From contig NW_026570419.1 of assembly GCF_019649055.1 (NCBI RefSeq), positions 83,540-147,539 on the forward strand: a DNA stretch of 64,000 nt, given 5' to 3'. Positions 1,945-62,745 of the stretch are shown in pieces. The translations under genes and the position numbers were made by a program. Under the pieces are notes generated by a model, which searched no databases, had not been told where the DNA came from, and saw nothing but the letters and a program-made list of their open reading frames with translations. Positions within the stretch are counted from its first letter, which is position 1; the number at the start of each line of letters is the position of its first letter. The stretch comes from Paramacrobiotus metropolitanus (Eukaryota; Tardigrada; Eutardigrada; Parachela; Macrobiotidae).

Positions 1945-4060
1945 TTAGTCTTCCTCCTCCTCTTCTTCATCTTCCTCTTCCTCCTTCTTTTTTTTCTGCT
2001 GATTGCGGTAATACATATAACCGCCCACCGCTCCTCCAATCTGCAGCCCAGTAGATTGCTTTAATACATTCTTGATGGCAGTGCGTAACGATTTTGTGCT
2101 GTTGCGAGAACATAAGAGCAGTACATACTGAAATTTTTTCGCGCTATAATAGCGCTGTATCCTGTTGTCCAGTTGTATATACCGTATTATGTAACTGTAA
2201 TAAACTCACCACAAGCAACCCAGCTGCGATTCCCACGATCATCATTGTGTTGGAAGAGCCTCCACCTGCAGTTCATATGAACCGTCAATGTCTACAGAAT
2301 ATAAGCAACACTCAAATTTTTTTACTGTCAATACAGAACGACGTACCATCGCCAGCCGTTCCGTCGCCCGTGCCATCGCCAGATCCTAAAAACATTTAGC
2401 AGTTGAAGCAACTTTGATAGACAATTCGATAAAACAAACCAGGTGCTTTACCGCTTCCGCCCGCGCTACCACTACCTCCGGTGCCCTTAGAGCCGGCCCC
2501 CTGCCCGCCACTGCCAGTTCCATCTACAATTGCAGTATGATCAATAAAGTAATGTTATAAGCGAAGTTATAGATTTGCACTAATAAAATAATAAAGACAC
2601 AGGCAAAAATTTAAGCAGTTTAACAATTAACAAGTCACTGTGTCAAATTACATTGCGTGTGTCTGATTGTGTGTACACACAGAAATGGCTGCCCAACTGG
2701 AACTACTGTACCTCGTCTCCCATTTAGCAAGCTCTCGTGCATCCAGAATTCGAAATAGCCAGATGCATTAAAAGCTGTACCTAAACTAAGCTAAAGATGG
2801 ATTTTATGTAAGCGTCTTCGGTAGACGCCTACAGTATCCCGTGACGATGGCAGTTTGCCGCATTATACATCGAAGTGGAAAATGCATCTATCGAGCGCGA
2901 ACGAGACTCGACTGGTAAAACCAAGCTATGTTTTCCGCGGCAACAACCGTACACGACCTTTATATGGCCTACGTGTGCTTTGCAGTAGACACGCTCTCGC
3001 CATTACTGCCATTGAAGCAGCATGTACATGCAGCCGCGCTGGGGAGCTAATTAAGTATGAAGCTTAGTATGGGTTGAGTAGGGAGCAGTCATGGAGAAAA
3101 GTTTTCTCATGCAAAACACATCGACGTGACAGCAGTATTCAGATACCTGAGCTGCCATCCGCGCCACCGCCGGTGCCATCCCCACCACCACCGCCCGTCC
3201 CACTTTCACCAACAGCGCTACCGGCTCCACCACTCCCACTGCCACCACCGGCAGCACCGCCACCCGACGTACCTGCGCCACTTCCAGCTGCACCGCTTCC
3301 ACTACTGCCGCTGGAACCTCCACCACTGCCGCTGCCACTCCCACCGCCTCCGCTAGCGCCGGGAATTATCGGGCCCCAATTCGGAGCATCCGTCGGCTTG
3401 TTATTGGGGTCGTAATAAACCGGCTTACCGGCATTATTAATAAACTGCAAAAACAGATGGTGCTATCAGCATTAATGGGGCTGTACTATAGAGATCCTTA
3501 TACAGTATATCTATATTTCACAGATACCTCCTTCTGTATAGAGAAACCGTAATGTTTGACAATCAGTGTGGCTTAGCGTTTCTTCATGCAGACTTTGAAA
3601 TTCCAATAATTATTGGTCGTCAAGTGCTAAACTTTACCTGTTTTTAAGTTGCTATCGTACGCGGGCTTGTATTCGCTGCTTACCCCATAACCTTTACCGC
3701 TGAACAATGTTGATACATCGGGATCAGTTCCAAGGAAGCTGTTACACAAATCAGTCCGGCAGAAACATATCTTGCCATGATTATACGGTGAGATTCCGCA
3801 TACGGAACTGGCACCGGTTGGCCATTTGCGATCGAAGAGATCCAGCAACGGCGAGATAATGTTAGCGCCCCCAGAAACGCATTCTCGTCCCCACTTTCCA
3901 CCTGTCACGCAGTATAAGGTTTTGTTACAGTCAGACCTCAGCGAGATAGTTTTAGTTGAGACTGGCTGGTCACTGGCTTGCTTGCCTGCCACGTCCGGAT
4001 CGGAACGGACGGTGCAAAAGCTGCTCGGTGGGCAGTCCACTTTTTGAATACTGGGAGAGG
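1945..4060 (-). CDS. TFD protein with Gly/Ser stalk, TM helix and acidic tail
   Basis: Minus-strand gene modelled as exons 4060-3684, 3444-3147, 2523-2452, 2385-2347, 2265-2210 and 2127-1945 (stop 1947-1945), plus an unseen 5' signal-peptide exon. The first visible exon has about ten cysteines and the signature CFCRTDLCN. The next three are Gly/Ser-rich (GSGSGGG and TGSGGQG-type runs). The fifth opens the membrane segment (MMIVGIAAGLLV) and the last completes it (YVLLLC), followed by a cytoplasmic tail with KKKK then an E/D run. Most introns are phase 1, so the stalk exons are modular; 3444-3147 starts in phase 0. The end of the first exon is uncertain: the donor at 3683 keeps the frame, but one at 3637 also looks good. 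A minus-strand AATAAA lies at 1921-1916. It looks like a type I surface protein; function unknown. Confidence 0.65.
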
Positions 4061-4655
4061 CTGTAAAAGTTACAATACATACGGTCACGGTAAAAGAACT
4101 TGTGGATTCACCGGATAAAAAAAAACTACCCTAGACTATTTCACATATTCCACTGTTCCGCATTGCACTAACAATTTGAGAAGGAATGAATTGATTAAAA
4201 GAACAATGATTTCCTGCGATTCAAGATGGAAGGACACGTGAAGTTGCCGAAATCGTTGGGGTGTTTTAGTTAATTCGTCCTACAAGAGAACTGAAAAGGA
4301 ATTACCCGTCCGGATTTTAAAAGAACCTGTGTTCTGATTGGCGTTAGCGCGTGCGTGATCCTGTAAGGTACCTGGTACATGACGGAGTTGCTGAAAATTC
4401 AAGACTGTCGATAAACCTGTACAGAGATTTCCGGCGACGCAACGGCATCATAAGTCTTGGCTAAATTGGCTTTATCGAATCAAGGAAGCGGAGGACTGTA
4501 GTCTGTATGTAAGCTGTCTATATTCGAACGCATCTGCAGTTTCCTACAAAAGCTATTTGGGAATTTCTCCCATGTTGTCTAGTGTTGATGAGCAGCAACA
4601 ACCGTTGTATTTCTTCCTTCCCAAATTGTAACCCATTGCTGAACGCTGTGACACC

Positions 4656-22011: not shown

Positions 22012-25000
22012 ATGGAATCTCGTCCTAATCCCAAGATCTCCATCCAAACCCCATCGGGAACCGAAAGTGTTGCCAACAAAGCTCCCAGCACAGTTCAGTC
22101 CTCTCACAACAGCTTAAGCCGCAGCGTCCAGTCGCACGAGAGACTGTCGTACGTCTTATCTAATATCTGGTCCCGCGAACTATCCGGTGTATCGGGCAAC
22201 TCCAGCATCCAATCCACCAGCAAGAACAGCGTGGATAGTGTGGCGAAAACGCGCAGCCAGTTATCAAAAGCTTCGGTTAAGTCAATAACTTCCGATAAAC
22301 AGCCACCGTTAACCGCTTCCCAGAATCGCTTATCCGTTATCAGGGAAACCCAGATCGACGAACTGTATTCGGAGAAACTCCGGCTTGAGTTAAAGGAGTC
22401 GCAGTCGTACCAGTTTACAAACAACCCGCATCCGCAATTCAGCCGGGAAACCGCGAACTCTGCATTGGAAGAAAGCGCATCCGCGGCGGAATCAGTCTCC
22501 GCTGCACGCACCCGTGAACGGCTTCTCAAACTCCACCAAGCGGAGGTTCAGCATTCGGCTTCGGAGCAGAGCGTTCAATCCGCGACCTCCAGTCCATCAG
22601 CGCCCATGGCGCAGAAATCCTTTCTGCATGGTTTGTTCGGCAAATGGACGAAGCAGAATAATCCCCATTCCGTCAATAGTCTGGAAGCCACGTCCACGTA
22701 TTCGTTGTTGTCGTCCGGCAGTGACACACTCCCGATGTACAGATCAGCCGCATCGGAGCGCTCCGATGTTACGCTGGCGGAGTACCGCGCCATAAAGGTC
22801 AAGAATCTGGATGAGATCTTCGCCAAAGCGGCGCTGTCGTCGGCCAATTTGGCGGCGGGGGATCGGCGCGATAGTGATGCGGCTTTGGCTTTTCCGTCGG
22901 ATATGCCACCGATCTACAATGTTCTGTTGGGGCATTTGGAGAATGATATGGCGCATGACAAATTGGTGCCATTTATATTGAGACGGGTAAGAAAAAGTTG
23001 ATCCTGTGGCTTACCTGACGGAACTTCTGTTACCCTTACACCTACTGTGGCATGGCATATTATGTCCAGTGCATGGAATGTTTTCTATATGTAAAGCATA
23101 GGTATTTGGATTCGTTGAATGGGCTGTACTAAGGGTAAAGCCGTTACATGCAGGTCCACCTGCGAAAGGTTTTGTAATTTCGCAGTTTTTTTAGAACCTT
23201 TTAAATTTTATAAATTCATTCATCAATTCCAACAAGCAACGCCATAACTTCTATCCTGTGTGAAAGCACGTTTATATTGTAAGCATCTTCAATTAGATAG
23301 AGAACATTGATTTATAAGGTCACTTTTTGTATATATGTAGCCGTTTGCATTTGGACCTTCTGCAACCTTGTTCCACCCTTAACTCGCGACCGGATGTTGC
23401 GTACACAATCTGTGATTTCACCAAGGTGCACGCATCATTTGGCTACGTAATGCAGCAACTTGCTCTGTAAAAGGAGATACGAACGAACCTTTGTGAGGGC
23501 TATACCGGGTCACTTCCTAAAGTTTTATTCGCCAGTAATGGCCACCAATTAAAGCTGACTGAGTGCTAGTGTAGCGTGTGGTCATGCAGTAAACAACAGA
23601 TTGCTTACAGGTGCTAACAATTCTGTGCAACATGTGCCATCAGTTCCACGGCTCCGTCAGGTAAGGCCACCAACGGGAACGCGTCTTCCACGGTGTACTT
23701 TCAAGCTGTGCGTTATTCTCCCTAGTTTATGGAATTCGGGCATGAGCGGCAATTTCTGGATCACTTGATGACCCGCATCCGCTCCGACGAAGAAACCATC
23801 CAGCATCTGTGCACCGCTAACGCGTTTGTCTTGACCGAGGCCAGTCGGGACTTTGTCGATCTTAACGACCGCATCGACCAGCTGCGGGAGGACGTGGTGA
23901 CCCTCGATGATCGGGACGTGTATGCCGCGCAGCTGAAGGAGATCCGCTATGCCGAGAAGGAAACCCGGCTGACCAGCTGCGTACTGAGCAATCTGGCCAT
24001 TTTGATGGAGCGCATCAATGCGCTACGGCCGGCATTGCGATCCTTCAGCAAAGCGTTGGAACTCAGCGCCACACCGGTGAAGGCATTGCGGTGCTTATGC
24101 AAAGCCCAGGAGGACACGGTACATCTGTCGCCGCAAATGGGATTTGTGGCGTGGCTGGCAACGACCATTCCGGAGATAAAGTATTCGTTATTGGAGACGT
24201 GCACAAGAGGTAAGCCAGCAGTTTCGCATGCTGTTTCCTTGGCGTATAGGTAGATGTAATACGCGTCAGCACTCGCACTATTCTTTCTGCCTGGGAGTTG
24301 CAATGCTGATGCCGAAGAGCCGTTTAAGTACGTGTATCTGGAAACATGTATGACTAATATCTTTCCGACAGATCTGTGTTCGTGCGAAAATCTCTTCTCA
24401 CGTACAGAAGAGTGAGAAGACTCAGCCTGAATCAGTAATGTACAATTACTCGAAATTGTGCGAGTTTTTAAATCATTGCACAACCCGCTTAATAACAATT
24501 TCTTCGCAATTGAGTATTCAAAGTGCTTAGCCATTTGCGTAAGTACCGGGCCAATCGAATTAAAAATGTCGTTTTCATAGTTATTATTATGTCGGCTAAC
24601 GATGTGCAAGTCTTACCCAGCACCATGAGTTGAATTAACATTCTCTTTCTACAGGAGTGATTTACACGTTGGAAGCGATCAGTCCGAGCAAACCACAAGC
24701 GGGATTGGCCATGTTCCACACCGTATCGCTCTACAGTGGAATCACCGTGGAGCCAGCGGCGTCAGAACTGCCGAAACTACTCAGTGCGCTAAATGGAGCG
24801 AATGCTAAAGAGAGCCTGGAAAAAATGTTGAACTTGCGCCTTCTGAACAACTTCCGTCATATAGTCAAGACACTGGTGGATTATCCCGGGGGAGTGGATA
24901 GCGAATACTTGTTCCACTGTTACGTCACGTACATGGCGGAACGACATGTGCAGATTTTCAAAAACCTAGACGAACACGATGTGACCACCTTGCAGCAGTT

Positions 25001-26954
25001 GCGGTCGTTTGTGCAGAAGGTAAGCTGCATAATCCGGTAATGATCAGCTTGTGCTCAGCATAACAAGCGATACATCGCACTGCAACGGTAGGAATCTAAC
25101 CAATCAGAAACAGCAGTGTTTTTTGCTTTTCGCTTTAACCATTTTTTTAATAATCACAAGGCTAAATCAGAATAGGCATACAAAACAACTGAAATCACAG
25201 GCAGTTATGAAATTGAGGAGCCACAATACGTTCTGAACGTTATTAGCTGAAATTTCTGGAATGATTTTGTTGAAAAAAACTCTGTCCAATCTAACTAAGT
25301 TACCGTTTCAGATTGTAGGGATTTTTGGGATGGAGATGTTCATTGCTTACTACGTAACCGGTATCACTGCCGAGGACTACTACAACGACCTTTGGAAAGA
25401 CGTCTTCCCCAAAGTCCGCACCATTACCGAAGACGCCATCAAGCTAGTCTGCACGGAAAACGATTATAAGGACACCAGGATCCTTTTGCGCATATTTCTG
25501 TCGGCGATGGCCATGCTGCGCTGTGACACCAGCGGGATCTTCTGTCTCCTGGAATCTCTCGCCGGACACTACTGCAAAATCCTCGACCAGACGCTGGGCG
25601 CGGCAATGCACTTATCCCTATCCCGTGACCTTTTCAGCGCCCATATTCTGAGCAGTGTGGAAGCAGAGAAATCCTTCCTCCACGTTTTTGATCCATGGGA
25701 AAAGCATCCCGGCTGCACGAGTAAGGAATTCCCCAAGAAACTCCCGTTCTCCCAGAGCGTTCCGGAGATCTACGGCTTGCTGACCAATTACATTTCCTCG
25801 AACATTGACGTGGATAAAGATCTCGGGTTAAGTGTGGAAGAGTCGTTGGAGCGCGCGGTGGAGATTACCAAGACGGCGTTGACAACGCAGTTGTACGATC
25901 ACCTGCAGGATATCTTCACCAGCGGGTATCTGCTGGTTAAGCAGTACGTGCAAGTATACCAGAACATGACGCAATTGCAGTATTGTTTGCCGCGGCTGGA
26001 ACGGTTTATCGCCAAAGAGTTGTGCGTGCATTTGGAGACCAATCATCCGCTGTTATCGCTACGTTCGGCGAATGTGACCTTTGAAGCGCTTAGACTGGGA
26101 ACCGAGCAGCAGCTGATTGGAGAACTCACGGTAAGCAATTAATCCGATTTAGATAAGCAAAATTTACTTTTCGGTAAAACTTTGAACCTGTTGGAGAGCA
26201 ACGAATTTTTATTTGCGCTTTGCACGCGTCAGATTAACAGTTGTAAGTGTGGTTCCTTGCGTTGTTTCCGCAGGGATACATCCAAGCAGTTTTGCATGAT
26301 AGCGTCACCGATTTAACGATTATACCGGAAGCTCCATCTGAAGAAGCTAACAAGGTTCTCGGTTTCATCAAAGAGTTCTTTGACGACATTAGCCGACTGC
26401 GACCAGAGTTCGCCGAAAAAGCCTTCGCAACGCTGTGGGCCACCATCCCCACGGAACTGGAGACCTTCTGGGTGTACGAGTCAACGGTCGTCAGTCGCGA
26501 GGGACTGCACCAACTGCGCATCGATATCGAGTACTATGAAAAAGTCCTGGGCATGTTTGGGTTCCGAACGGTGAAAGAGAGCGGAGAAAACAAGGAATTC
26601 GACTACCTATTGCAGTTGATCAGTCTGGTCCTGGACGATGACTGGACGAATTACATCAGCAACTTTGGCACGAAGGAGTCCAAGTACACGGTGGTGCCGC
26701 CGGGATCGGCCGTGCGGGTTCTGGCGAAACTAAACGATATCCATCTGGAGGCGTCCAAGTCGAATACGTATATCAGTGTGCGCGGGGAGAAAGAGAAGAA
26801 GCAACGCCGAGAATTAATCTTAATTCAGCTGGATGATTTGGCTACCGTAGGGAAGATTGTACATTTTAAAGTGCCGAAGTCGAAATCGAATTTGTTGTTA
26901 TTGAAGTCAAATACGTCTTTTGATCCTACTGCAAAGGATTCGAAGATAAAATGA
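22012..26954 (+). CDS. EXOC6: Exocyst complex component 6 (Sec15)
   Basis: Five exons, 22012-22986, 23726-24209, 24655-25019, 25312-26130 and 26274-26954, with GT-AG introns in phases 0, 1, 0 and 0, encode about 1107 residues. Sec15 links Rab GTPases on secretory vesicles to the exocyst at the plasma membrane. From about residue 326 the family pattern is followed: ERQFLDHLMTRIRSDEETI, then IVGIFGMEMFIAYYVTG, then KKLPFSQSVPEIY, and near the end DDDWTNYISNFG followed by KYTVVPPGSAVRVLAKLND. Usual length is about 800 residues. The extra ~280 at the N-terminus, in exon 1, are Ser/Gln-rich and probably disordered. An AATAAA lies at 26977-26982. The gene is intact by eye. Confidence 0.9.
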
Positions 26955-27526: not shown

Positions 27527-30500
27527 TCATCCCACCGGATCAGGGTGATGCTCATAAGTTCTCAAATTCGATCCCATTCTCTTAATATTCAATTCCTTAG
27601 CCAGCATGCCGGGCAGCCCGACCCGGTTCGCCTTAGCGCGCCTGATCAGTCGCCGGTACCCTTCCTTCGTCGTCCGCAACAGATCCGTCATCCAAAAATA
27701 AATCACCGAATTCGTCGCACTACTCCCGTGCGCCAGAATCAGCCCCATGAAGTTGTACCACTTCGGAAAGGTCACCGAGCTCCGCAGTATAAAAAACAAC
27801 CCCAACGGCATCCACGACAGCAGGAATAGTATGAACACCTTAAACAGCGCCTTGGCCAGTTGGATCTCATCGCGAATGGCCCGCAACTGCATGGGCGGGA
27901 TGATGCCGGGCGCCGTGGGATCGGCGCTGGAGTTCGTGGACGCCCGGCTATGGGACACGAGGATACGGCGCCCGGCGCGGCTGATGCGGATGCGACGGTA
28001 AATCTGCATGTAGGCATAGAAACTGATGTTAATGGGGATGATGACCGCCAGGATGCCGAAGAAGATGGAGTAGGATTGGAGATGCAGTTCGGAGGTGCAG
28101 AGGTTAAGGTCCGCGGTGTAGCCGGTGCGGCCCCAGCCCAGGTAGTTCGGGGCGTGGATGGCGTTGGCGACGATCCACAGGAGAATGATTAGACCGGCCG
28201 TGCGGAGGGGTGTGAAGAGTTTGCTGTGCAGGTTGTGGTGACAGATGCAGATGTACCTACAGTCGAAACAACGTACGGTATACAAAGTGTTTCAAAGTGG
28301 AATTCTTCCTTATATAATGTGGTAGCACGAAAACAAGCATTTTTAATTCACATACAAAACAAATTTTTAACTTGTCGGCCCAATGCGCCATAATTGGGAC
28401 TTGATTATGAATGGTCCATAAACTTATGCCTTTGTAATTGAAAAGCTGTTAGTAGTGTACGTATATGAAAATCAGGAAGCACTGTTATGACATTGTTAGC
28501 TTCGGTTTATGAATGTACCGCTTGTAGGTGCAGCATGCAATTTTTCGTGAATCAATAATTTTCAGTGACCGCCAATTTATTAAGTGTCACCCTGCAACCA
28601 TTGATTTGAATGCACTAACTGTAAGCAGGACACCTTGGGCATCCCCCTTCATAAAGCATGTCATCTGCCGCATCGGTATGATGCCGGTTGCACCACGTTT
28701 GTTATTACTTTTGCCCTTTTCAACATCTCTACATAGAACTTCCCGGCCATTCTCAGCCTTTAATTTTACTTACCGGGACAGTCTCACCGAAGCTGCGCGA
28801 GTAATTAGTGACCAACTAGCCACACTTGGTTAATGAACCGGAATTAAACTTTAATCACATGTCTGCCCTGCTGTACAGAATTAATGACTTGGAAGAGAAT
28901 ACTACTGTATAGAAATTTAGGCTAGTTTTGCATCACAGACGCTATGTGGATGACGCGTCGACCGTCATAAAAGCGAGGCCTAGAAAATTAAGAAAAACTA
29001 AGATACCTAAGAAAACTAATTCGTTTTCATGGGTTTTAGGGCGAATCTATGAAAGTGCGAACCCAAGAAAACTAATTGGTTTTCTTAGACGTCTTAAGAC
29101 AAAACTGAGAAACAAAATCCTGAAGAAAACCAAGACTGTTTAGGAAAACCAAGACGGTTTAGGAAAAAGCTATCTCGACTTTGTCACGGGTCGACCTAAC
29201 GATCGACGAAATAGCGGGTTACCAAAAAGCAGGCTCGCAAAAATGTGAAAGATGACCGTTGTCCCGATAACTCCCGTTCGGCGTATGTGTAACGACCCCG
29301 GAAGTAAGCACACAATCACAAATTTAAGGATGACACATTGACGTGTTTATACTGTACCCCGCTCATCAAATCTGTTGCAAGTTTAAAGTGCCTTTTTATT
29401 GCCAAAATAGCTTGGATTTCAGTAATCTTCTGCCCGCCCCAGATTGTTTTTCGAGCAGTCAGATTTCAAAAGCTATCAATGGCATACCGTCACATATAAA
29501 ATTTTGATCCAACAGATTACCGTATTACGCTGCATGCTAATCTGTTGCATACCGCTGTTGCGATCGCTCCGCGCAAATTGGTTCACGGAAACGCAACCGG
29601 TCATAAGTCTGCCCTGGAGAGTTAAGCAGGAAGAAGGGATTGACATGCACGTAATGATCAGAGGACGTCTTTACCGCTATCTTGATCTGTGCGCGATTCA
29701 CATGCAAGGGCATGTGCTACTGCGAACGAATCCGCACGAGTACAGCAAATTATTAATGCGAATTACGATGTTTGTCGGCAGGACACTGACAATCAACGCC
29801 ATTAAGCCTCCTCAAGAGACGCACTTTGAGTCGTGGTAAATACTATTTACTACGTTTGTAGTAAGCGAGGATAGCACTAATTTCGAAAGGTAAACATTAA
29901 TACTGATCAAAGCAGTATCTACGCAAGTGTTACGTTACGTAAGTGTGAATCAGACGTGATACTTCGACTTAGTATATAGCTACTTTATGGAAAATCCTGG
30001 ATTTAGCAAACACTGATTGTAAGTACACAATAAATAAGAATAATATTTCATAATAACTATTTTTGAATTACTGCCACGATGTTTGATTCGTATGCACAGT
30101 AAATGCGCGCTGTTTTACCAATTTTTAAAAATAATTTCCAAGATAACTGGGTTTATCTCTTCTCTGGAATATATTGATAAAGTTTTGCATGAGACTAAAA
30201 TAATGTAAGGAAAAAAAATGTTGACCGATCAAAGGAACGGTAAAAAGGAAGACTGAAATAATTAGGAATAAGATTAAGTTGCTTTATTTTCGATAGCACT
30301 GTACCTTTCCACACTGATGGCCATGATACACCAGATGGATCCGGCACACGCGGAGGCACAGATACTCCCTTCCAGTTCGCAGAACCACGGGTGCCGCCGG
30401 AACATATCCGGTCCCTTTAGCAATACTGCAAAATGGGTGGGATGACGCTATAGCAATATGTTTGTACGCGATAACGACGCTTTTCGGATGGAAATGACGA

Positions 30501-31215
30501 CATGTGGCTTACCGGCTACGATGACCGGCAGCACGATGGCCGTAATGAGGATGTCGGCAAAGGCCAAATTGCCCACAAAGGCATACTGACAGTGGTGTAA
30601 TTCCAACACCAGGACCAGCGAGATTAACACCTACACACAACGACAACAAGCTGTGCTAAATGAAATGTTATATTTTGCACAAACAACACTTGGACTATCT
30701 GGGTTACAAGATTGCAGTCCAATTTCTTTAAATAAAACGTAGCTGCACGGTTACATTTAATGCACAGTAGTGTGCACGATACGTGAGCAGGGCTTCTGCC
30801 GTCTTGTACTAACTTTAATGAATACCGGAATTTAATTTAGATGGACCTCTTATCAAAAACTACCAGGAGAAATAATTACGCGTTTTAGAATGCAAGAAAT
30901 AATTACTTAAAAACGTTCTAGCTGCAAAGGATGAAGATAAGCGGTTTTATATTGATATCGATAATTAAATCAAAAAATAATATCACCCCAGTAGATTATA
31001 GCGGACAACGTTTTTTCACTTACGAATAAATTCGTTAGAGTGCCAAACGCCGCCAAACTGCTCATAATGCCGATGAAAATCCAGTTAAGTGTGTAGTGTT
31101 CTTCCCATTGACGGTCAAACTGCGCAACATAGACGTCCCAGTTGGTCGCATTGCCCGGTACGGACATGTCCATCGGTACCTTCGCCAACGCCATCAACAC
31201 ACTGGAATTTTCCAT
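27527..31215 (-). CDS. Class A GPCR, melatonin-receptor-like
   Basis: Minus-strand exons 31215-31024, 30630-30513, 30425-30305 and 28256-27527 join in phases 0, 1 and 2 to give 386 residues. The N-terminus has NSS and NAT glycosylation sites, then TM1 (IFIGIMSSLAAFGTLTNLF). TM2 contains NLAFADILITAIVLPVIVAG. TM3 ends MAISVERYICICHH, with ERY in place of DRY. TM4-5 follow (LIILLWIVANAIHAPNYLGW, FFGILAVIIPINISFYAYM). TM6 has LLSWMPLGLFFIL. TM7 ends NSVIYFW, with NSxIY where most class A receptors have NPxxY. The RYICICHH and NSVIY features recall melatonin receptors (NAxIY), but ligand assignment is inference. Intron 3 is about 2 kb and holds repeat DNA. Confidence 0.85.
28950..29190. repeat. 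AGAAAAC(T/C)AAG-type degenerate repeat in GPCR intron 3
   Basis: Many irregular copies of agaaaactaaga / gaaaaccaagac over about 200 bp, flanked by gtcgacc motifs. A related stretch occurs at about 45.04-45.15 kb, so this is a dispersed repeat. An open frame at 29444-29839 (plus strand, same intron) resembles nothing known and is not called as a gene. Confidence 0.6.
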
Positions 31216-39016: not shown

Positions 39017-39299
39017 TTTAATTCAACAAAGCATTTTATACCGCATACCCTTCGCGTTATATTAATCATACCTGTATATGTCACATTAACCACAGCTTTT
39101 TACAGTAGAAATGAAAATTAATATGATTGTTACTGGATTTTTTATTTGTGTCGGTTGACTGCAGAAAAACGTTTTATCATTTTTAGACGTTACAATAATT
39201 AAGGATGTTATAATATTTAATAAATAGCGAGCTTTTACAAGATGAAACTCGTAAAATCGGTTGACTCAGCCGACTGTACAGTCTGTACAGTCTGTACTT

Positions 39300-39854
39300 T
39301 TCGTAATATCCTGCAATAAGTCAACCAAAGGACGATGGGCGCGGCACCAAGAAATGAACAGTATTGCTAAAAATTGTTGCGAAAGCGCCGGTTTTCCCTG
39401 TCAACTAGAACCGACCGGCTTATCGAGCAAGGACGGAAAAAGACCCGACGGGATGACGCTGATTCCAGTCCGCCATGGCAAACCACTGGTGTGGGATGTA
39501 ACCAGTTGGTGCACGGTCGCAGACTCTCTTGTCACCGGCAGCTCGAGGAAAGCTGGATACGTGGCTCAGCTCGCAGAAAATGCCAAGCGCCGGACATATT
39601 CATTTGTGGAAAATGGAAACTTTTTTTATCCTTTAGTGATTGAGACGTTGGGAGTATTTGGCCCCGCTTTCAGTGAATTGTTGCATTTCATGGGCCGTAA
39701 AATTCGAGACTTAACTGGAGAAGCGCGTTCTACTGCTTTCATTAAGCAACGTTTTAGTCTCGCCGTTGTAAAAGGAAATGCTACGGCTGTTTTGAGCACG
39801 TTACCTTTTAACCCACGAGAAGATCGAGATTTTGGTTGCTTTTTTAATGTTTAA
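39300..39854 (+). mobile_element. Retroelement polyprotein C-terminus, best-preserved zone
   Basis: Plus-strand open frame ending at 39852-39854, homologous to the 51.1 kb copy. It reads SCNKSTKGRWARHQEMNSI, then GKRPDGMTLIPVRHGKPLVW followed by DVTSWCT, then VIETLGVFGPAF, GRKIRDLTGEARS and a final RFSLAVVKGNATAVLSTLP. I know this region as the downstream part of reverse-transcriptase polyproteins in many invertebrate genomes; the RPDG...WD residues suggest a nuclease-like fold. The 5' part, including the reverse transcriptase, is missing, typical of 5'-truncated non-LTR insertions. Its AT-rich tail (about 39850-39910, tagtgtaccggcgcttgcag) recurs at 45.3 and 60.6 kb. Confidence 0.7.
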
Positions 39855-43646: not shown

Positions 43647-44456
43647 TTAAATCTTACTAGTTTGGATCCCCATCGTGTTGCAGAGATCGCCAAAGCAGAA
43701 ACATGCTTGACCGCGGTAACCTTCTTGCGGGAAGGGTGCACACGACATATTATAAGGAGTTACAATCCTCTGCCCACATTCTTGAGTGTGGGTTTGGAAT
43801 TCTGTGGCTGCAATTCCACAGTATGTATGATAACTCACAAGCCAGACGACATCTGGGGTTTAAAAAATTTTAGCTTTAATTTAAAATTCAGGTCTGCTGG
43901 AAAAACATTGAAGTTGCTGGCTTTTTCACCTTATCCGGGTGGCAAAAAATTGAATTGACCCAGGAATCAAAATTCTGATAATCTACCATATAATTATCAC
44001 GTAGTGTTAAAAATGTAAGTATTGTCGCAATTTCGCTTGAAGTTTACGCTAGCAAATCATTGCGCCATTGTTAATTGCACTGTTGCATCTTTAAACATCA
44101 TACTGCAGTTTGAAAGTGTTGTGGTAGCGGTACTTACGGGTTGTATGTAATACGGTTCTATGAGCACAATTGTTGGTCATGGAACAATTTTTGGTGATGG
44201 TGTTAAGGCAATTTGTCCTGGACCGATTATAATCTTCAGGAAAGTTTCCGGACGCGTATTGGCATTGGTAACATTCAATGGCTTTTCCTACCATATTCAT
44301 CAAAAATTAAGTTGGCCTTTGGAAAAGTCGTGCAGGTGGTCAGATTCTGTTGCAGGCTTTTGAAACTGGCGTATTACACATTATTGTAGAAGTACCGATC
44401 TTATTGGTAGCGAAAACGAATGTGGCCAGTAAGACCAGTTTCCAATCCACTGTCAT
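43647..44456 (-). CDS. Complete three-exon Ly6/three-finger protein
   Basis: Minus-strand exons 44456-44396, 44287-44138 and 43807-43647 join in phase 1 at both junctions (372 nt, 123 residues). Exon 1 is a signal peptide (MTVDWKLVLLATFVFATNKI). Exon 2 opens the domain with AIECYQCQYASG and further cysteines (TNCL, KNCS, NNCAH). Exon 3 supplies ECGQ, MSCAP and the terminal ACFCFGDLCN signature, ending soon after it. There is no stalk or hydrophobic C-terminus, so the product should be a soluble secreted three-finger protein, unlike the anchored members in this window. The exon 1 donor (GTACTT) is weak, but the phase match and clean leader support it. Target unknown. Confidence 0.7.
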
Positions 44457-45653: not shown

Positions 45654-46706
45654 TTACTGTTACCGGGAAGCAGGTACAGGTGCAGAATATACTTATAAAT
45701 GTACAAACGCCAGAATGGAAAGTGGCAAAGACGTTGCGGCGCTCCCCAGATCTAGAGTTGTCCGCTCAACAACAAAGTAAACGAGAACATTTGATTACGT
45801 TTATAACTCAAACCATTGTACTCCATACAATATATCATTTCTCTGATTATATCATACAGTTTGTTTTTCCAAACGACGTTGTGATCGCCGCGGCCAGACA
45901 TATGGCGGGCTGTGCTCAGTTTTGTGCACGTCTGGTGCAGCGTAATGGCATTATTACCAGCCGACCAGAAATCGCAGATGTATTTTTATATAAATGCATG
46001 TAGAGTTCTGTAAAGATGTATCACTGCGCAAAAGCTCATATAACCAACAGTTATCAAAAGCTGCAAAATTCGACTAAATCAAATTGCGACGTAGTTGTGT
46101 ACAAAGCTATTTTTTCCGTTTCGCACCGGCCACCACTTCATATACCCGGACTATACCTTGCAGCGCTGCATTTGCACCTACCGCATAAATTTGAAACCAT
46201 TGTACCAAAACAATAGTATAGGTTCACTGTATTAGTATTATGGTTATATGTCATGGAACGAACTTCAACTGGGCGAAAATTTCCTTGATATCGCGAGCAT
46301 TGTCAACTTTCACAAATAAAACACTTGCAGTAGCAAAATTAATACTGTACAACGAAAAAACTGTTAATGGAATCGGCTGTCCAGCGGTACCTGTCTACCA
46401 CACAACCACCCAGGGAAGGCATCTGCCATCCAGCAGCTCGCGTAACCGAACACCGAAGGCGGTCGAATGTACGCCACACACATCTGTCGAGAATGCAGAC
46501 TGCCAGTCAGTACCCAGTGGAAGAAAGTTGAAACTCTATCTGTGGAACTTTTTACAAACTTTAGTTCGAATAAGTTAATTCTCGAATTATTGACTGGCTG
46601 AGGCTGGTTTCAAATTCCTAGGAATCCCTGTTTCTTTTGCGTGAATTTCCCGCATGTTTGACGGATCCATCCGTGATAGCTCCCATCCACATCCATCTGA
46701 TCTCCA
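45654..46706. other. Intergenic, unexplained open frame at 45680-46003
   Basis: The plus-strand frame 45680-46003 (107 residues, with RPEIADVFLYKCM at its end) is open from an ATG but has no recognisable domain, signal peptide or splice sites. I do not call it as a gene. The rest is stop-rich and leads into the TMEM230 promoter. Confidence 0.35.
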
Positions 46707-48354
46707 ATGAGCAAACCATCCGTGGACGCTGACGCCGTCCGCTTCTCCGCTCCCTCCCACGTTGACACCACCGGACTGCGTCGACGGGAGTTCCAGCGTG
46801 ATCTCCCCACACGCAAGGATTCCGACGATTTCACCGATAACCAGGTAGGTAGGGGGGTGGCTGTCTGGCGTGTTGGGAGGTGCCAATCCCGAGAACGCTG
46901 TGTTGTTTGTGTGCTAATGATGGATGATGCACATGGAGAACCCATTGACAGTCGTTGCTGTTCTGTAGTTCAAGAGCTACTTCTACGATTCCTGCGCGCC
47001 CCCCATCGCTTCCATCTGGAGAGCCGTGATTTTGTTCGTGGTGGGCACGGTGCTGACGGTTGTGGGGTCGTTATTGCTGGCTGGATATTTCGATACCAAG
47101 GTATTGTCTTCGATTTTATTATTTTTATGGTTTCACTTTTTCCCATTCTTGTACCTAGTTTTAACTAAGTAGCCGTGGGTGAATTTCGAATTATTTTGTT
47201 TGGTGAAATTCAAAATTAAATTCCACACTTTTACCAATTAAAAAAATGCCCAATAAACTGTACTACTCCAGAAAATAAAAAAAGTGAATATTTAGTGTTA
47301 TTTACTGAAATCTGGAGCAGCGATTTGATCATTTAACATTCAATTATTTGGTAACTTGTTGTGAAAATTGTTTTTATTTGAAATTAGTTTTGTTAACAGG
47401 ATGTCAGGATATCGCTTGTCAGTTGTTTCGGGTGAGTTTCAGAAAAATATAGGTAGTTCTGTGGAAGTTTTTATTTACAGTATTTATGGTGATATTTTAG
47501 AAAGCCAAAGCCAAAGAAAGAATAGAATTTTTTTTAGCCAAAGTAAGAATAAAAATAATAAATCAGTTCATCGGAAATTTCTTCATGGAGGCTTTCAGTT
47601 TTGCGGGAATGCTTACAGATGTATTAATAATTCTAGAAATCCAAATTGGACTGACAAATGTTTTGATAACATTGAAATTTAAGCTTGTCAGGCATTTTTC
47701 GACAAATTCAAATGTTTGGAAATTTTCAGAGATTTTTTAAACATTCTTTAATTATATGGATGACGCTTTTTGCAATTATGTGTAACTGTTACATGATTTA
47801 CCGCTTCAAAACCCGTAATTGGGATATTATTTGGATAAAGTTGGACGCATTTTGAAAAAGTTGGACGGACTTAGAATACCGTAATTTTCCGAAATGTTAC
47901 AATACACACGCATCGTCTTTGGGTTGCATTTCTTATTCGCTCGGTTTCAGAAGTTGTGAGTATGAACATGAACATTGTAGAGTAATGGCACTGACTTTCA
48001 TAAAACACACTCCTATGAGTTTACTGATGTGTTGGCTGTTACCAAGTTTATACTGAAAATATTTCCAGATTACCTTTACTTTTTATACTTGTATAGATGA
48101 CAGATCTTTTTATTTCTTGTAACCAGTATGTTCAGTAATGCTGAAGTATAATTGATTTTCTGAGTTGTACATGTACTGGAGTTACATGTATATCCGAAAT
48201 TAATTTGGCGTTTTTGTAGTACGCCGATCGGACGTGGCCGGTGCTGACGCTGGGCTTACTGTGCTTCATCCCCGGCGCGTACTACACCCGCATCGCCTAC
48301 TACGCCTACAAGGGCTACGAGGGCTTCAGCTACCAGGACATCCCCAGCGACTGA
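46707..48354 (+). CDS. TMEM230: Transmembrane protein 230
   Basis: Three exons, 46707-46844, 46969-47100 and 48220-48354, all phase 0, encode 134 residues (about 120 in the usual family member). The polar N-terminus is followed by helix 1 in exon 2 ([20 protein letters not shown]) and helix 2 in exon 3 ([17 protein letters not shown]). The family hallmark [19 protein letters not shown] sits at the C-terminus. TMEM230 is a two-pass protein of secretory and recycling vesicles that acts in vesicle trafficking. The stop codon at 48352-48354 is followed after only 12 nt by the ATG of the next frame on the same strand. Confidence 0.9.
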
Positions 48355-48366
48355 TCTCCAAGCAGC

Positions 48367-48636
48367 ATGCCGGCTATCCAGGCGCGATTTGTACCGGCCG
48401 GTCAGGGGGCTGGTGATGCGAGTGCCGCCGGAAACTTGCGTGTGGACATTCCTTTGAGTGAGGGATTGGGCGGGTTGTTGGCGGGGGTGGCGGATGTGAA
48501 GGCGCGGATCAATACGCACCTGACGGAGGTCCTGAACCGGCAGCGGATGGGTGGGGAGCGGGAGACGGTGGGCGAGGAGGCGGAGGAGGGGGAGGACGAA
48601 GTGGAGGAGGACTATTTGGATAAACTGAATAAGTAG
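48367..48636 (+). CDS. GON7-like KEOPS subunit (tentative)
   Basis: Single-exon frame of 89 residues starting 12 nt after the TMEM230 stop. The core NLRVDIPLSEGLGGLLAGVA followed by DVKARINTHLTEVL, then a long acidic tail (EEAEEGEDEVEEDYLDKL), matches what I know of animal GON7: a short protein of about 100 residues with LRV..., GLLSGV..MK and an acidic end. GON7 is a subunit of the KEOPS complex, which makes the t6A modification on tRNA. The sequence is short and disordered, so the call rests on pattern and length only. ctccaagcag just before the ATG would serve as a trans-splice acceptor if the pair is dicistronic. Confidence 0.5.
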   Translation: MPAIQARFVPAGQGAGDASAAGNLRVDIPLSEGLGGLLAGVADVKARINTHLTEVLNRQRMGGERETVGEEAEEGEDEVEEDYLDKLNK

Positions 48637-48902
48637 TGATGCGATTTGTGTTGTTTGATCTGTTTTGTGTTTTTTCCTTGAATTCCAGAAAATTCTGTTT
48701 GTCGGTGTGATGATTTGTGTTTGAAAAATCAATTGAATAGTCTTGTCCACTTTGTGTGGCTTGAAGCTTCGCGCTTTGCGTAGCTTTACATGGCATTTAA
48801 ACTCGCTATTAAAGCACTACTATGACACCAGCTTTAGCAGCCTCAAATTTATACGATTCACGCAGAATGCTGATGGCGGTTGCGCCTCAACTGCGACTAC
48901 TC

Positions 48903-49412
48903 GGTTAAGGAAAATGGCCCGGTATACATGGTATCGAAAATATTATACATACATTTAAACTTTCGCCTTCGCGCACTCCAGATCACTTTTTAGTCATATT
49001 TTATGTCGTTCTAAAGCTAAATAATTTGTAAAATTGTTTTGAAAACCGTTTGCGCGCGCAATACCGGTTGCCGAAATATGGCGAAAGCAGACGAAAAGTT
49101 TCGAGAAAATCGGGTACACGACTATGAAACCAGACTTTTAGTACGTACACGACTATGAATTTGAACTTTTGAACTTTGAACAACGACTTGAATTTGAAAT
49201 TTCCATAAATATTTAGTTCGCCATATTTTTTCGGCAACCGATATTGCGCGCCCAAACGCTTTCCCGAACAAGGTATACAAATTATTTAGCTTGAAAATGG
49301 CATAAAGACGTATTGCAAAACAGTGATTCGGAGTGCGCGAAAGCGAAAGTTTAGTTTAGTGTACTGTATGTATAACATTTTGGACACCATGCATCTGCCC
49401 ATTTTCCTTAAC
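48903..49412. repeat. Large fold-back element, about 180-bp arms
   Basis: The left arm 48903-49083 (gttaaggaaaatgg...ccgaaatatggcg) and right arm about 49219-49412 (cgccatattttttcgg...ccattttccttaac) are diverged reverse complements. The spacer is about 135 bp and itself contains two acgactatgaa copies. No coding capacity. It is the longest inverted repeat in the window and separates the TMEM230/GON7-like pair from the TFD loci. Confidence 0.85.
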
Positions 49413-49618: not shown

Positions 49619-50095
49619 TTACAACTGCAGCAAAAACGCAGAAATTATTATAAAAATAAAGTTTATATTTCTGAATCTAGGACTCAAAGACGCAAGACTA
49701 TCTTTCGGTATGGATCCTGGACGAGTTGTTTTCCACTTATTCCTGGTGGTAAGGATGGTTGTATAATTAGAAGGAAGCTGTGGCCAGTCTTCAGGAAATT
49801 TGTCCAAGGTATTGCAACGATCTGAATTACAAAGGCAGGTGTACGTAACGGCGGTATCCTGAAAGCAAACAGGTGGCGAACAGTTCTGCTGGCCACTGCA
49901 CGTTAGACGTGAGCACCCGGAGAAGAAAAGCCGTGATTCAGAAAATAAAGCATAGCAAACGGGCTCATATCCAGCGCATTCTGTTGTGTCGGAGCAAGAA
50001 GTGGTGGTGCCTCCAGATTCATAGCAGTTCGCGCATGTTAAGGAATGCGCTCCCGAAGCTGACAGCAGAACGATGAAAATTAGGCAAGTTATCAT
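49619..50095 (-). CDS. Single-exon GPI-anchored Ly6/three-finger protein
   Basis: Minus-strand intronless frame of 158 residues from ATG 50095. Residues 1 to about 18 are a signal peptide (MITCLIFIVLLSASGAHS). The mature part starts LTCANCYES and contains 12 cysteines, two more than the usual ten, ending in the signature TCLCNSDRCN. A Ser/Thr/Pro linker with an N-Y-T site precedes a hydrophobic C-terminus (INFIFIIISAFLLQL) with no basic residues after it, as expected for a GPI-attachment signal. Unlike its relatives here, it has no introns, which raises the possibility of an old retrocopy or intron loss. The likely location is the outer face of the plasma membrane. Confidence 0.85.
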   Translation of the reverse strand: MITCLIFIVLLSASGAHSLTCANCYESGGTTTSCSDTTECAGYEPVCYALFSESRLFFSGCSRLTCSGQQNCSPPVCFQDTAVTYTCLCNSDRCNTLDKFPEDWPQLPSNYTTILTTRNKWKTTRPGSIPKDSLASLSPRFRNINFIFIIISAFLLQL

Positions 50096-50813
50096 GGGAA
50101 TTCTTAGTATACCAAGTGTTTATATCTAATACTCAAAAAACTCCAAACAATAACGACAAACGCAGGTTGGTGACCATTGCGACTAACACCACTTTTGGCC
50201 AATGGGATACTAGGGCTTCTCGACCACCGCGACTGGCTTTTATAGTACGGTTTTTACTCAGTAAAAACAAAATATAGAAACCCTTACTCAGCAAAACCGT
50301 TTTTTCTCAGCTTACCAAGGAAGGAATACGAAACATCTTTTTGTACGGTCATACTTTTGTCTTTACAGTCCTAGCAACGCTCGCCTATCCGCAGCAGCAG
50401 ACGGCTGCTTTCAGTACAGTAGTATCCAAATAAAATATCAACTGAAATATTCTCAACAATCAGTTTTCCCGTATCAACTTTGCAGCAGTGTATCTCTGCC
50501 GCTCAATACAACTGGCTTTGAAAACAACGAATAATTTTTTTTATTTTCCCATTACATGCTGTAGCCGATCGCCCCTGTCACAACCTCACAGTCGCGCATC
50601 AACAGAGGTTGGAGCTACCGACAGGTAATTGCTAGTCGACTATCCAGGTGTGTAAGTGAGTAAAATAACGAAAGTTAGCAAATTTTTACGGAGCCATTCC
50701 ACCAGAAAGGGCAGGAAACCGTTTGCATGAGCCTGGCAAAAAGAAGCTGCAAAAACTTCAAGATATTGTTTAGCAACCTGCTCCAGCAATGCAGGTCTAC
50801 GTTACAACAAGAA
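50096..50813. other. Intergenic, no gene
   Basis: No exon recognised. Weak local repeats (cagtaaaaacaaaa / cagcaaaaccg near 50260-50310) only. Confidence 0.4.
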
Positions 50814-51042
50814 CTAACAAAAACTATAAAAAACTAACAATGCTGCAGCGTGCACGTGGAACAGGATCGAAGCTGTTTTCGAAAAGATCCGCCTCCTGAC
50901 AGCTCCCGAATCAATCACGTGTAGAAGGGTTTTGTTGTTACAAAGCGAGGTATCGCAGAGGCAGTACACTTTTTTACAGGAAGCATCCCCACAATCTTGT
51001 TGTCTGTAGCATCCGTTTGCTCTTTTCGCCATATCCGAATAG
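50814..51042 (-). CDS. TFD gene, 3' exon only; upstream part disrupted
   Basis: Minus-strand exon beginning after ccttttcag (acceptor ending 51043) in phase 2 and ending at 50814. It holds the second half of a three-finger domain (NGCYRQQDCGDASC, then YCLCDTSLCNN) and a hydrophobic C-terminus (SILFHVHAAALLVFYSFC) like a GPI signal. The first-finger exon expected just upstream is absent. Instead a truncated retroelement begins at about 51119 on the opposite strand. Either the insertion sits in an intron and the 5' exons lie beyond 51.86 kb, or the gene has been cut in two. I found no matching 5' exon. Confidence 0.5.
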
Positions 51043-51118
51043 CTGAAAAGGACAATAGCAAACAAAATTCTAAAATTATGGTCTTTTGAGATGTTGTATA
51101 CTCGTACTGATATGATAG

Positions 51119-51856
51119 GGTTATGAAAGCAAAGAAAACGGGGCATGGCTGGAAGCGCTCCCAGCAGCATCACTGGGAAATTTCCTGAACGATACCACAC
51201 TCAGAATCGCAGTCGGCCTGCGCCTCGGAGTACCGATCACCACACCACACCGTTGCATCTGCGGTGAATGGGTAGACTCACGAGGATATCATGGCCTAAG
51301 TTGCAAAAAAAGCCGGGGCCGGATGTCCAGACACAGCTGCCTTAATGCCACCTTAAAGCGCGCCTTCGCTTCAGCAGGTATTGAAACGGAACTGGAACCA
51401 CCCGGTATCTGCCTAACCAATGGTATGCGTCCCGACGGAGTGACGTTGGTCCCGTGGGAAAGAGGAAAGATGTTGACCTGGGATGCTACATGTGTGTGCA
51501 CAGTAGCCTTGTCGCACATCGTGGCAACATCGAAACAAGCGGGAGCAGCCGCGGCGCGCGCAGAGCAGGATAAAGTGGCGAAGTATCGTGACATCACACC
51601 GGACTACATGTTCCGCGCAGTAGGCGTCGAAACACTCGGACCTTTGGGACCAGACGCTTCTCGCATGGTCACCGAACTCGGACAGATGATACGCGCAGAA
51701 ACGGGCGAGATACGGGCGATTGAGTATCTGCGCCAGAGGTTCAGCATTGAAATTCAACGCGGGAATGCGGCCTCCGTCATGGGAACAGCACCAGCATCGG
51801 CTAATTTAGATGAGATGTTCAGTATAATCAGACCGTCTATCTCTGTTGTCGGTTGA
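51119..51856 (+). mobile_element. Retroelement polyprotein C-terminus, longest copy
   Basis: Open plus-strand frame ending at 51854-51856. It starts mid-protein with NGAWLEALPAASLG and TLRIAVGLRLG, then the zinc-like HRCICGEW...YHGLSC and SRGRMSRH. These are followed by MRPDGVTLVPWERGKMLTWD, VETLGPLGPDASR and a final RFSIEIQRGNAASVMGTAP. The frame is unbroken for about 245 codons, so this is the youngest-looking copy in the window. The reverse transcriptase is absent (5'-truncated). The first in-frame stop upstream lies at about 51116, near the presumed insertion junction in the minus-strand TFD locus. Confidence 0.75.
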
Positions 51857-62254: not shown

Positions 62255-62279
62255 GTACTTCGGTTTTTTCGAAAAATGC

Positions 62280-62745
62280 GAATGTACGCATGGGATGGTT
62301 TTCAACCGCTTTGTACTTTTTCGAACAGCGAGGTTTCCAAAACAAATAAAAACTGTGAAATTGGATATAGCTTGGTTTACTTGGGCAGCACTGGGACGTA
62401 CGACTCGGTACCGTTATAACAATAGTGCTCATGAGACTCGAATATACGCATGAGATGATTTTCAACGGTTTTGCACTTTTTTGAACAGCGAAGTTTTCAA
62501 AACGAATAAAAATTGTAAAATTGGACAATGTTTGGTTTGTTGGGTAGTACCGAGACGTACTGCTCGGTACCGTTATAACAATGATGCTCATGAAATTTGG
62601 TTATACGCATGAGACGGTTTTCAACCGCTTTTCACTTTTTGTTTAGCAATGTCTCTAAACTTGATTGAATTTGGAAACTGTTGTATGTCCGAGTTTTTGG
62701 AGTGTGCCGGGACGTAACACTCAGTAACCGTTGTAACGAGCTCGT
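62280..62745. repeat. Three tandem ~160-bp repeats
   Basis: The landmark tacgcatg occurs at 62285, 62445 and 62604 (periods 160 and 159). Each unit contains gattttcaacgg / ggttttcaaccg, gcactttt, aatttgg / aattgga blocks and a gtaccgttataacaat-like end. Unit 3 is the most diverged. Confidence 0.8.

Follow-up and report, generated by a model that had tools for sequence, protein, structure and literature searches.

How might an open reading frame (ORF) be translated when its start codon lies only 12 nucleotides beyond the stop codon of another gene on the same strand? The question is raised by a locus in a 64-kb stretch of DNA (hereafter the window), eukaryotic judging from its spliced genes, in which a gene for TMEM230 is followed directly by a small ORF that resembles GON7. 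A preliminary description had placed the two back to back on one strand with a gap of 12 nt, and the spacer (48355-48366, plus strand) is indeed exactly that long. As ways in which the second ORF might be expressed, it had offered first an operon resolved by spliced-leader trans-splicing, and also reinitiation. The reading tentatively favoured here, with a rough probability of 0.42, is a single dicistronic mRNA on which the second ORF is reached by leaky scanning.

TMEM230 and the reading frame behind its stop codon

The upstream gene is modelled as three exons spanning 46707-48354 on the plus strand and encoding 134 amino acids, with coding exons at 46707-46844, 46969-47100 and 48220-48354 separated by two phase 0 GT-AG introns, the first (46845-46968) of 124 nt and the second (47101-48219) of 1119 nt and 31% GC. 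Exon 3 ends in TGA and is devoid of ATG in all frames. The predicted product matches the Pfam family PF05915 (TMEM_230_134) with E = 1.4e-14 and 54.7 bits against a curated cut-off of 26.8, and on the strength of its sequence the first ORF can be regarded as securely identified as TMEM230. A PDB sequence search with this protein returned a single match (E = 0.75), and a search of viral contigs gave eight pattern matches with no relatives among them.

Immediately beyond the spacer lies an intronless ORF of 89 amino acids (48367-48636, plus strand), which shares the frame of TMEM230 at an offset of 417 nt, a point absent from the preliminary description. The open frame is by itself weak evidence for a gene: 2.5% of shuffles keep a frame of this length open, and one antisense frame likewise lacks a stop. 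The codon likelihood of the second ORF is the highest of the six frames and was reached by none of 2000 mononucleotide shuffles, with a score just below zero when taken against the ORF's own base composition (-0.06 bits per codon, compared with a shuffle mean of -0.62). GC content at codon positions 1, 2 and 3 is 0.72, 0.42 and 0.74, the last of which compares with 0.81 in TMEM230. The second ORF behaves as coding, and in its choice of codons it is similar to other genes of the window.

The window also holds the exons of a Sec15/EXOC6 exocyst gene (23726-26951, plus strand) and, convergent to it, a rhodopsin-type receptor exon (27530-28291, minus strand), both of which served as coding controls. 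Five of seven ORFs with a cysteine pattern look Ly6/CD59-like (678-1232 on the plus strand; 3630-4130, 43650-43859, 49622-50119 and 50817-51200 on the minus strand). Of the five, one matches Pfam CD59 weakly (E = 9.2e-05, under the cut-off), and those at 678-1232 and 3630-4130 have no Pfam match at E 0.01. The other two candidates were dropped by eye: 30627-30836, and 27775-28188, which represents an alternative frame of the receptor exon. Two plus-strand ORFs (39255-39851 and 51119-51853) appear by eye to be related ends of LINE-type elements and have no Pfam match in searches at E 0.01 and E 1, and a tandem repeat of a 160-nt unit (62279-62640) runs to 2.3 copies with 82% matches.

Identity of the second reading frame

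The preliminary description called the second ORF GON7-like and counted a profile search without GON7 homology among the grounds for refuting its reading. Such a search does return a match, to Pfam PF15387 (DUF4611), the sole Pfam family returned for the ORF at E values up to 1, but the match (E = 0.0041, 17.7 bits) stays below the curated cut-off of 32.1. DUF4611 is the GON7 family, since human GON7 matches the same model at E = 7.4e-43; the human sequence used is identical to chain D of PDB entry 6gwj over 100 residues. Because the PF15387 score falls under the curated cut-off, the second ORF is named GON7-like here and is not filed as a member of the family. When the acidic tail is removed, the remaining 59 residues match no Pfam family at E 0.1.

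In direct comparison with human GON7, pairwise BLASTP gives E = 0.015. The whole-length score of the second ORF is equalled by 3 of 3000 shuffles and the score without the acidic tail by 29 of 3000, the tail-less score being equalled also by two other ORFs among the 818 tested in the window. With human GON7/C14ORF142 (6gwj chain D), the second ORF shares an LRV motif and a GLLxGVAxxK motif in colinear order, an acidic tail and, in the predicted model, two strands and a long helix; it differs in that the sequence similarity is weak and the Pfam score lies below the cut-off. The model in question, obtained with AlphaFold2 from the single sequence and of low confidence (mean pLDDT 69.5, pTM 0.36), places strands at residues 5-9 and 23-27 and a helix at 34-63. 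In C14/GON7 a beta hairpin is followed by a long helix, with some 40 disordered residues preceding the helix (PMC9889334); the model has the same order of elements, without those roughly 40 residues. Foldseek with this model listed eight matches, none of them GON7 (best E = 3.9) and 6gwj not among them, and phmmer with the second ORF against the PDB likewise did not return 6gwj, its one match (E = 1.1) being due to chance.

The name GON7-like is fair, in that motif order, codon usage and a low-confidence model fit it, and is held short of family membership by the sub-threshold profile match. In our judgement it is quite likely that the second ORF is GON7, and as such its predicted product would act in the KEOPS complex, where it would be expected to bind LAGE3/Pcc1. 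A more sceptical reading would make the second ORF no gene at all, but rather the GC-rich 3' UTR of TMEM230, as the DUF4611 score under the curated cut-off, the want of a Pfam match for the 59 residues without the tail and the ease with which frames of this length stay open would allow. Set against the codon usage, which is the best among six frames and unmatched by shuffles, the colinear motifs with their acidic tail, and the predicted fold of two strands and a long helix, it is very improbable.

A proposed shared transcript and the choice of start codon

Between 48220 and 48807 neither AATAAA nor ATTAAA occurs. The first such signal downstream of either stop codon is ATTAAA at 48808-48813 (plus strand), and a variant, GATAAA, is found at 48619 inside the second ORF. 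Because the gap is only 12 nt and these poly(A) signals are absent until 48808, past both ORFs, the two are most naturally read as sharing one transcript; given the same spacing, the TMEM230 3' UTR should enter the second ORF, barring cleavage inside the spacer. A stop codon located in the final exon is not expected to trigger exon-junction decay; in the modelled gene TMEM230 terminates in exon 3, its last, and a second ORF placed beyond that stop need not make the message a target of such decay. Intron 2 contains both AATAAA and ATTAAA (47215-47562), and an early-ended TMEM230 mRNA without exon 3 is therefore conceivable. About 100 nt past the ATTAAA signal lies a palindromic MITE-like element of about 510 bp (48904-49412), with five arm pairs that are 84-100% complementary.

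A further property of the locus, not remarked upon in the preliminary description, concerns the start codons themselves. The spliced TMEM230 ORF (405 nt) and the spacer together make 417 nt without a further ATG in any frame, so that the GON7-like AUG is the next AUG past the TMEM230 start. With the protein held fixed, the probability of finding no further AUG is 0.030 under a within-gene codon shuffle, 0.028 under pooled usage, 0.014 under the usage of the window's other ORFs (749 codons, TMEM230 excluded) and 0.001 under uniform codons, giving a chance of 0.014-0.030 with realistic codon usage. In the coding controls, four Pfam-matched stretches of the window that total 1980 nt (few in number, and one of them, Sec15 N-terminal, matching below its cut-off), ATG occurs 10 times in frame and 11 times out of frame, an average of 4.4 per 417 nt. 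Among 521 overlapping 417-nt segments of the concatenated controls, none is free of ATG and none is free of out-of-frame ATG. Realistic codon usage predicts no more than 2.3-3.4 out-of-frame AUGs for the first ORF, which makes their absence suggestive and not decisive. To our knowledge human TMEM230 has no internal methionine, and the in-frame absence may be family-wide.

By the general eukaryotic rule, C at -3 makes a poor start context and A a better one. The TMEM230 start has C at -3 (and A at +4) and the second start has A at -3, so that the first start is weak and the second better by a rule that may not be the host's own consensus. The locus carries the sequence marks of a leaky-scanning bicistron, namely an AUG-free first ORF and a weak first start.

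In the leaky-scanning reading, one capped, spliced mRNA would begin upstream of 46707, end at a poly(A) site past 48808 and carry both ORFs. Ribosomes scanning from the cap would mostly initiate at the TMEM230 AUG despite its poor context, and some would bypass it, meet no AUG for 417 nt and initiate at the GON7-like AUG. The intronless second ORF and the absence of AATAAA or ATTAAA between the ORFs are consistent with scanning on a shared mRNA. A possible upstream ORF of 18 codons (46654-46710, plus strand), with C at -3 and a TGA that overlaps the TMEM230 ATG, may complicate this picture, and would be used only if transcription begins upstream of 46654. Having finished the upstream ORF, ribosomes could resume scanning through the AUG-free stretch and initiate again at the second ORF, an arrangement that, if true, would add stress control, although this is speculation.

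The same dicistronic mRNA might be read differently, with ribosomes terminating at the TMEM230 TGA and reinitiating 12 nt downstream. Reinitiation past an ORF of 134 codons is usually poor, and the junction region is predicted to fold no more stably than shuffled sequence (z = +0.61); a GcvB match returned by Rfam in 46300-49200 (E = 0.7) is taken as chance. The spacer is very short, and the lack of competing AUGs near the stop would also aid reinitiation, by an argument made in PMC11892635. The absence of AUGs, however, spans the whole of the first ORF and is better explained by leaky scanning; the preliminary description's suggestion survives as a distinctly unlikely route. The shared frame brings in another, in which the TGA is read through, or skipped by splicing, to yield a TMEM230-GON7-like fusion, there being one TGA and four codons between the ORFs. 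A shared frame is expected one time in three by chance, the GON7-like ORF starts with an AUG of its own, and TGA with a following T is not among the strong read-through contexts known to us; of the explanations considered, the fusion is the least probable.

It is also conceivable that a separate mRNA serves the second ORF, made from a promoter in intron 2 or exon 3 or by alternative cis-splicing to the AG that ends at 48365 within the spacer. Intron 2 is long (1119 nt), this AG scores on a par with the gene's real acceptors, no ATG begins from 48187 to the second start, and 114 of 159 Drosophila dicistronic loci (45 + 69) are described as also expressing one or both genes in monocistronic form (PMC4528330). 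A separate mRNA would nevertheless leave the AUG-free exons 1 and 2 unexplained, and it is rather unlikely.

The AG at 48365 is the one in which the preliminary description saw a splice acceptor, and on which its spliced-leader operon depends. It lies two bases 5' of the second ATG and scores 1.19 (89.3rd percentile among the window's AGs), slightly above TMEM230's own two acceptors at 0.70 and 0.91 (percentiles 86.2 and 87.5), on a generic matrix; about one AG in nine, however, scores as high. The leader junction had been placed at about 48385, a position that falls within the second ORF and away from this AG. Very short spacers occur in the operons of some trans-splicing animals, and spliced-leader operons of the gap-free kind, known from nematodes and tunicates, have almost no spacer and an AG directly before the second ATG. 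The present locus shares the near-zero spacer and the AG just 5' of the second ATG, but differs in that an Rfam scan of the 64-kb window, a small sample, gave no matches of any kind, spliced-leader families included. An annelid has been described as being without operons (PMC7854359). Trans-splicing, moreover, does not predict the absence of AUGs from the first ORF, and what endures of the proposal is an acceptor usable by its score, with little specific to commend it; such an operon is unlikely.

The junction has one more peculiarity. A 17-nt near-repeat lies over the TMEM230 start (46697-46713) and again over the TMEM230 stop, reaching to the second start (48351-48367), both on the plus strand, with agreement at 15 of 17 positions (88%). 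Both copies have TGA TCT CCA in frame shortly 5' of an ATG, and the 11-nt run CTGATCTCCAA, with two occurrences in the window, precedes both starts; runs of at least 11 nt were shared by 25 of 20,000 random ATG pairs, with classes summed and pairs inside repeats kept. Because the 11-nt run was noticed post hoc, and three further short direct-repeat families occur within the same 2.5 kb, it is left without an explanation, as is the near-repeat.

Known bicistrons and a possible link to t6A

Leaky scanning is described, with mutational evidence, for Drosophila stoned and Snapin and for green-algal bicistrons, which have AUG-poor first ORFs and weak first starts (PMC11892635). With the Drosophila pair the present locus shares a first ORF deficient in internal AUGs and an off-consensus first start, and it differs in its genes and in its evidence, which there came from reporters and here comes from sequence (PMC11892635). 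With green-algal TOM22 and REX1S_REX1B it shares a weak first start and few or no AUGs upstream of the second ORF, and the spacer of 12 nt compares with 14 nt at REX1S_REX1B; the algal bicistrons, in contrast, are conserved across algal species, whereas here there is one locus in an animal-like genome (PMC11892635). Such marks of leaky scanning are not automatic, because most of the 159 dicistronic pairs in FlyBase are reported not to satisfy what scanning would require (PMC4528330). In the open-licence literature, no report was found of TMEM230 paired with GON7, nor of TMEM230 with any 'cistronic' term, and in the case examined 'cistronic' alongside GON7 refers to cloning constructs. A conceivable GON7 or TMEM230 dicistron at Drosophila CG42497/CG42498 or CG10590 found no support in the literature covered.

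The putative identity of the second ORF invites a regulatory speculation. KEOPS makes t6A, and the eukaryotic initiator tRNA is among those that carry it. With the bacterial initiator as the one exception, t6A is described as present on every ANN-decoding tRNA (PMC3695523). In yeast, t6A loss is associated with more start-codon bypass and stop read-through (earlier work, summarised in PMC4717488). SUA5/TCS2, which feeds the t6A pathway, came to light because an aberrant upstream AUG was bypassed; loss of SUA5/TCS2 has been connected with leaky scanning as well as read-through of stop codons, and GCN4 translation also rises in mutants of the t6A genes Tcs3, Tcs5 and Tcs8 (PMC4717488; PMC5951830). 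At the present locus a subunit of the t6A complex might thus lie behind a bypassable start: the GON7-like ORF would be reachable only via bypass of the TMEM230 AUG or read-through of one in-frame TGA, and a fall in t6A would open both routes, yield more GON7-like protein and restore t6A. Counter to such a self-correcting circuit, yeast without t6A is reported to have no global translation defect (PMC4717488). The circuit is weakened further in that its direct evidence comes from yeast and the GON7 identity here is uncertain, and we consider it quite improbable.

In our judgement, the way in which animal dicistronic mRNAs are translated has been worked out in few cases, and the locus bears the sequence marks of leaky scanning. 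If the second ORF is GON7, it would illustrate how a small and weakly conserved subunit can escape annotation behind another gene's stop codon, and, were that identity confirmed, the locus would offer a simple test of whether a tRNA modification regulates its own machinery through the choice of start codon.
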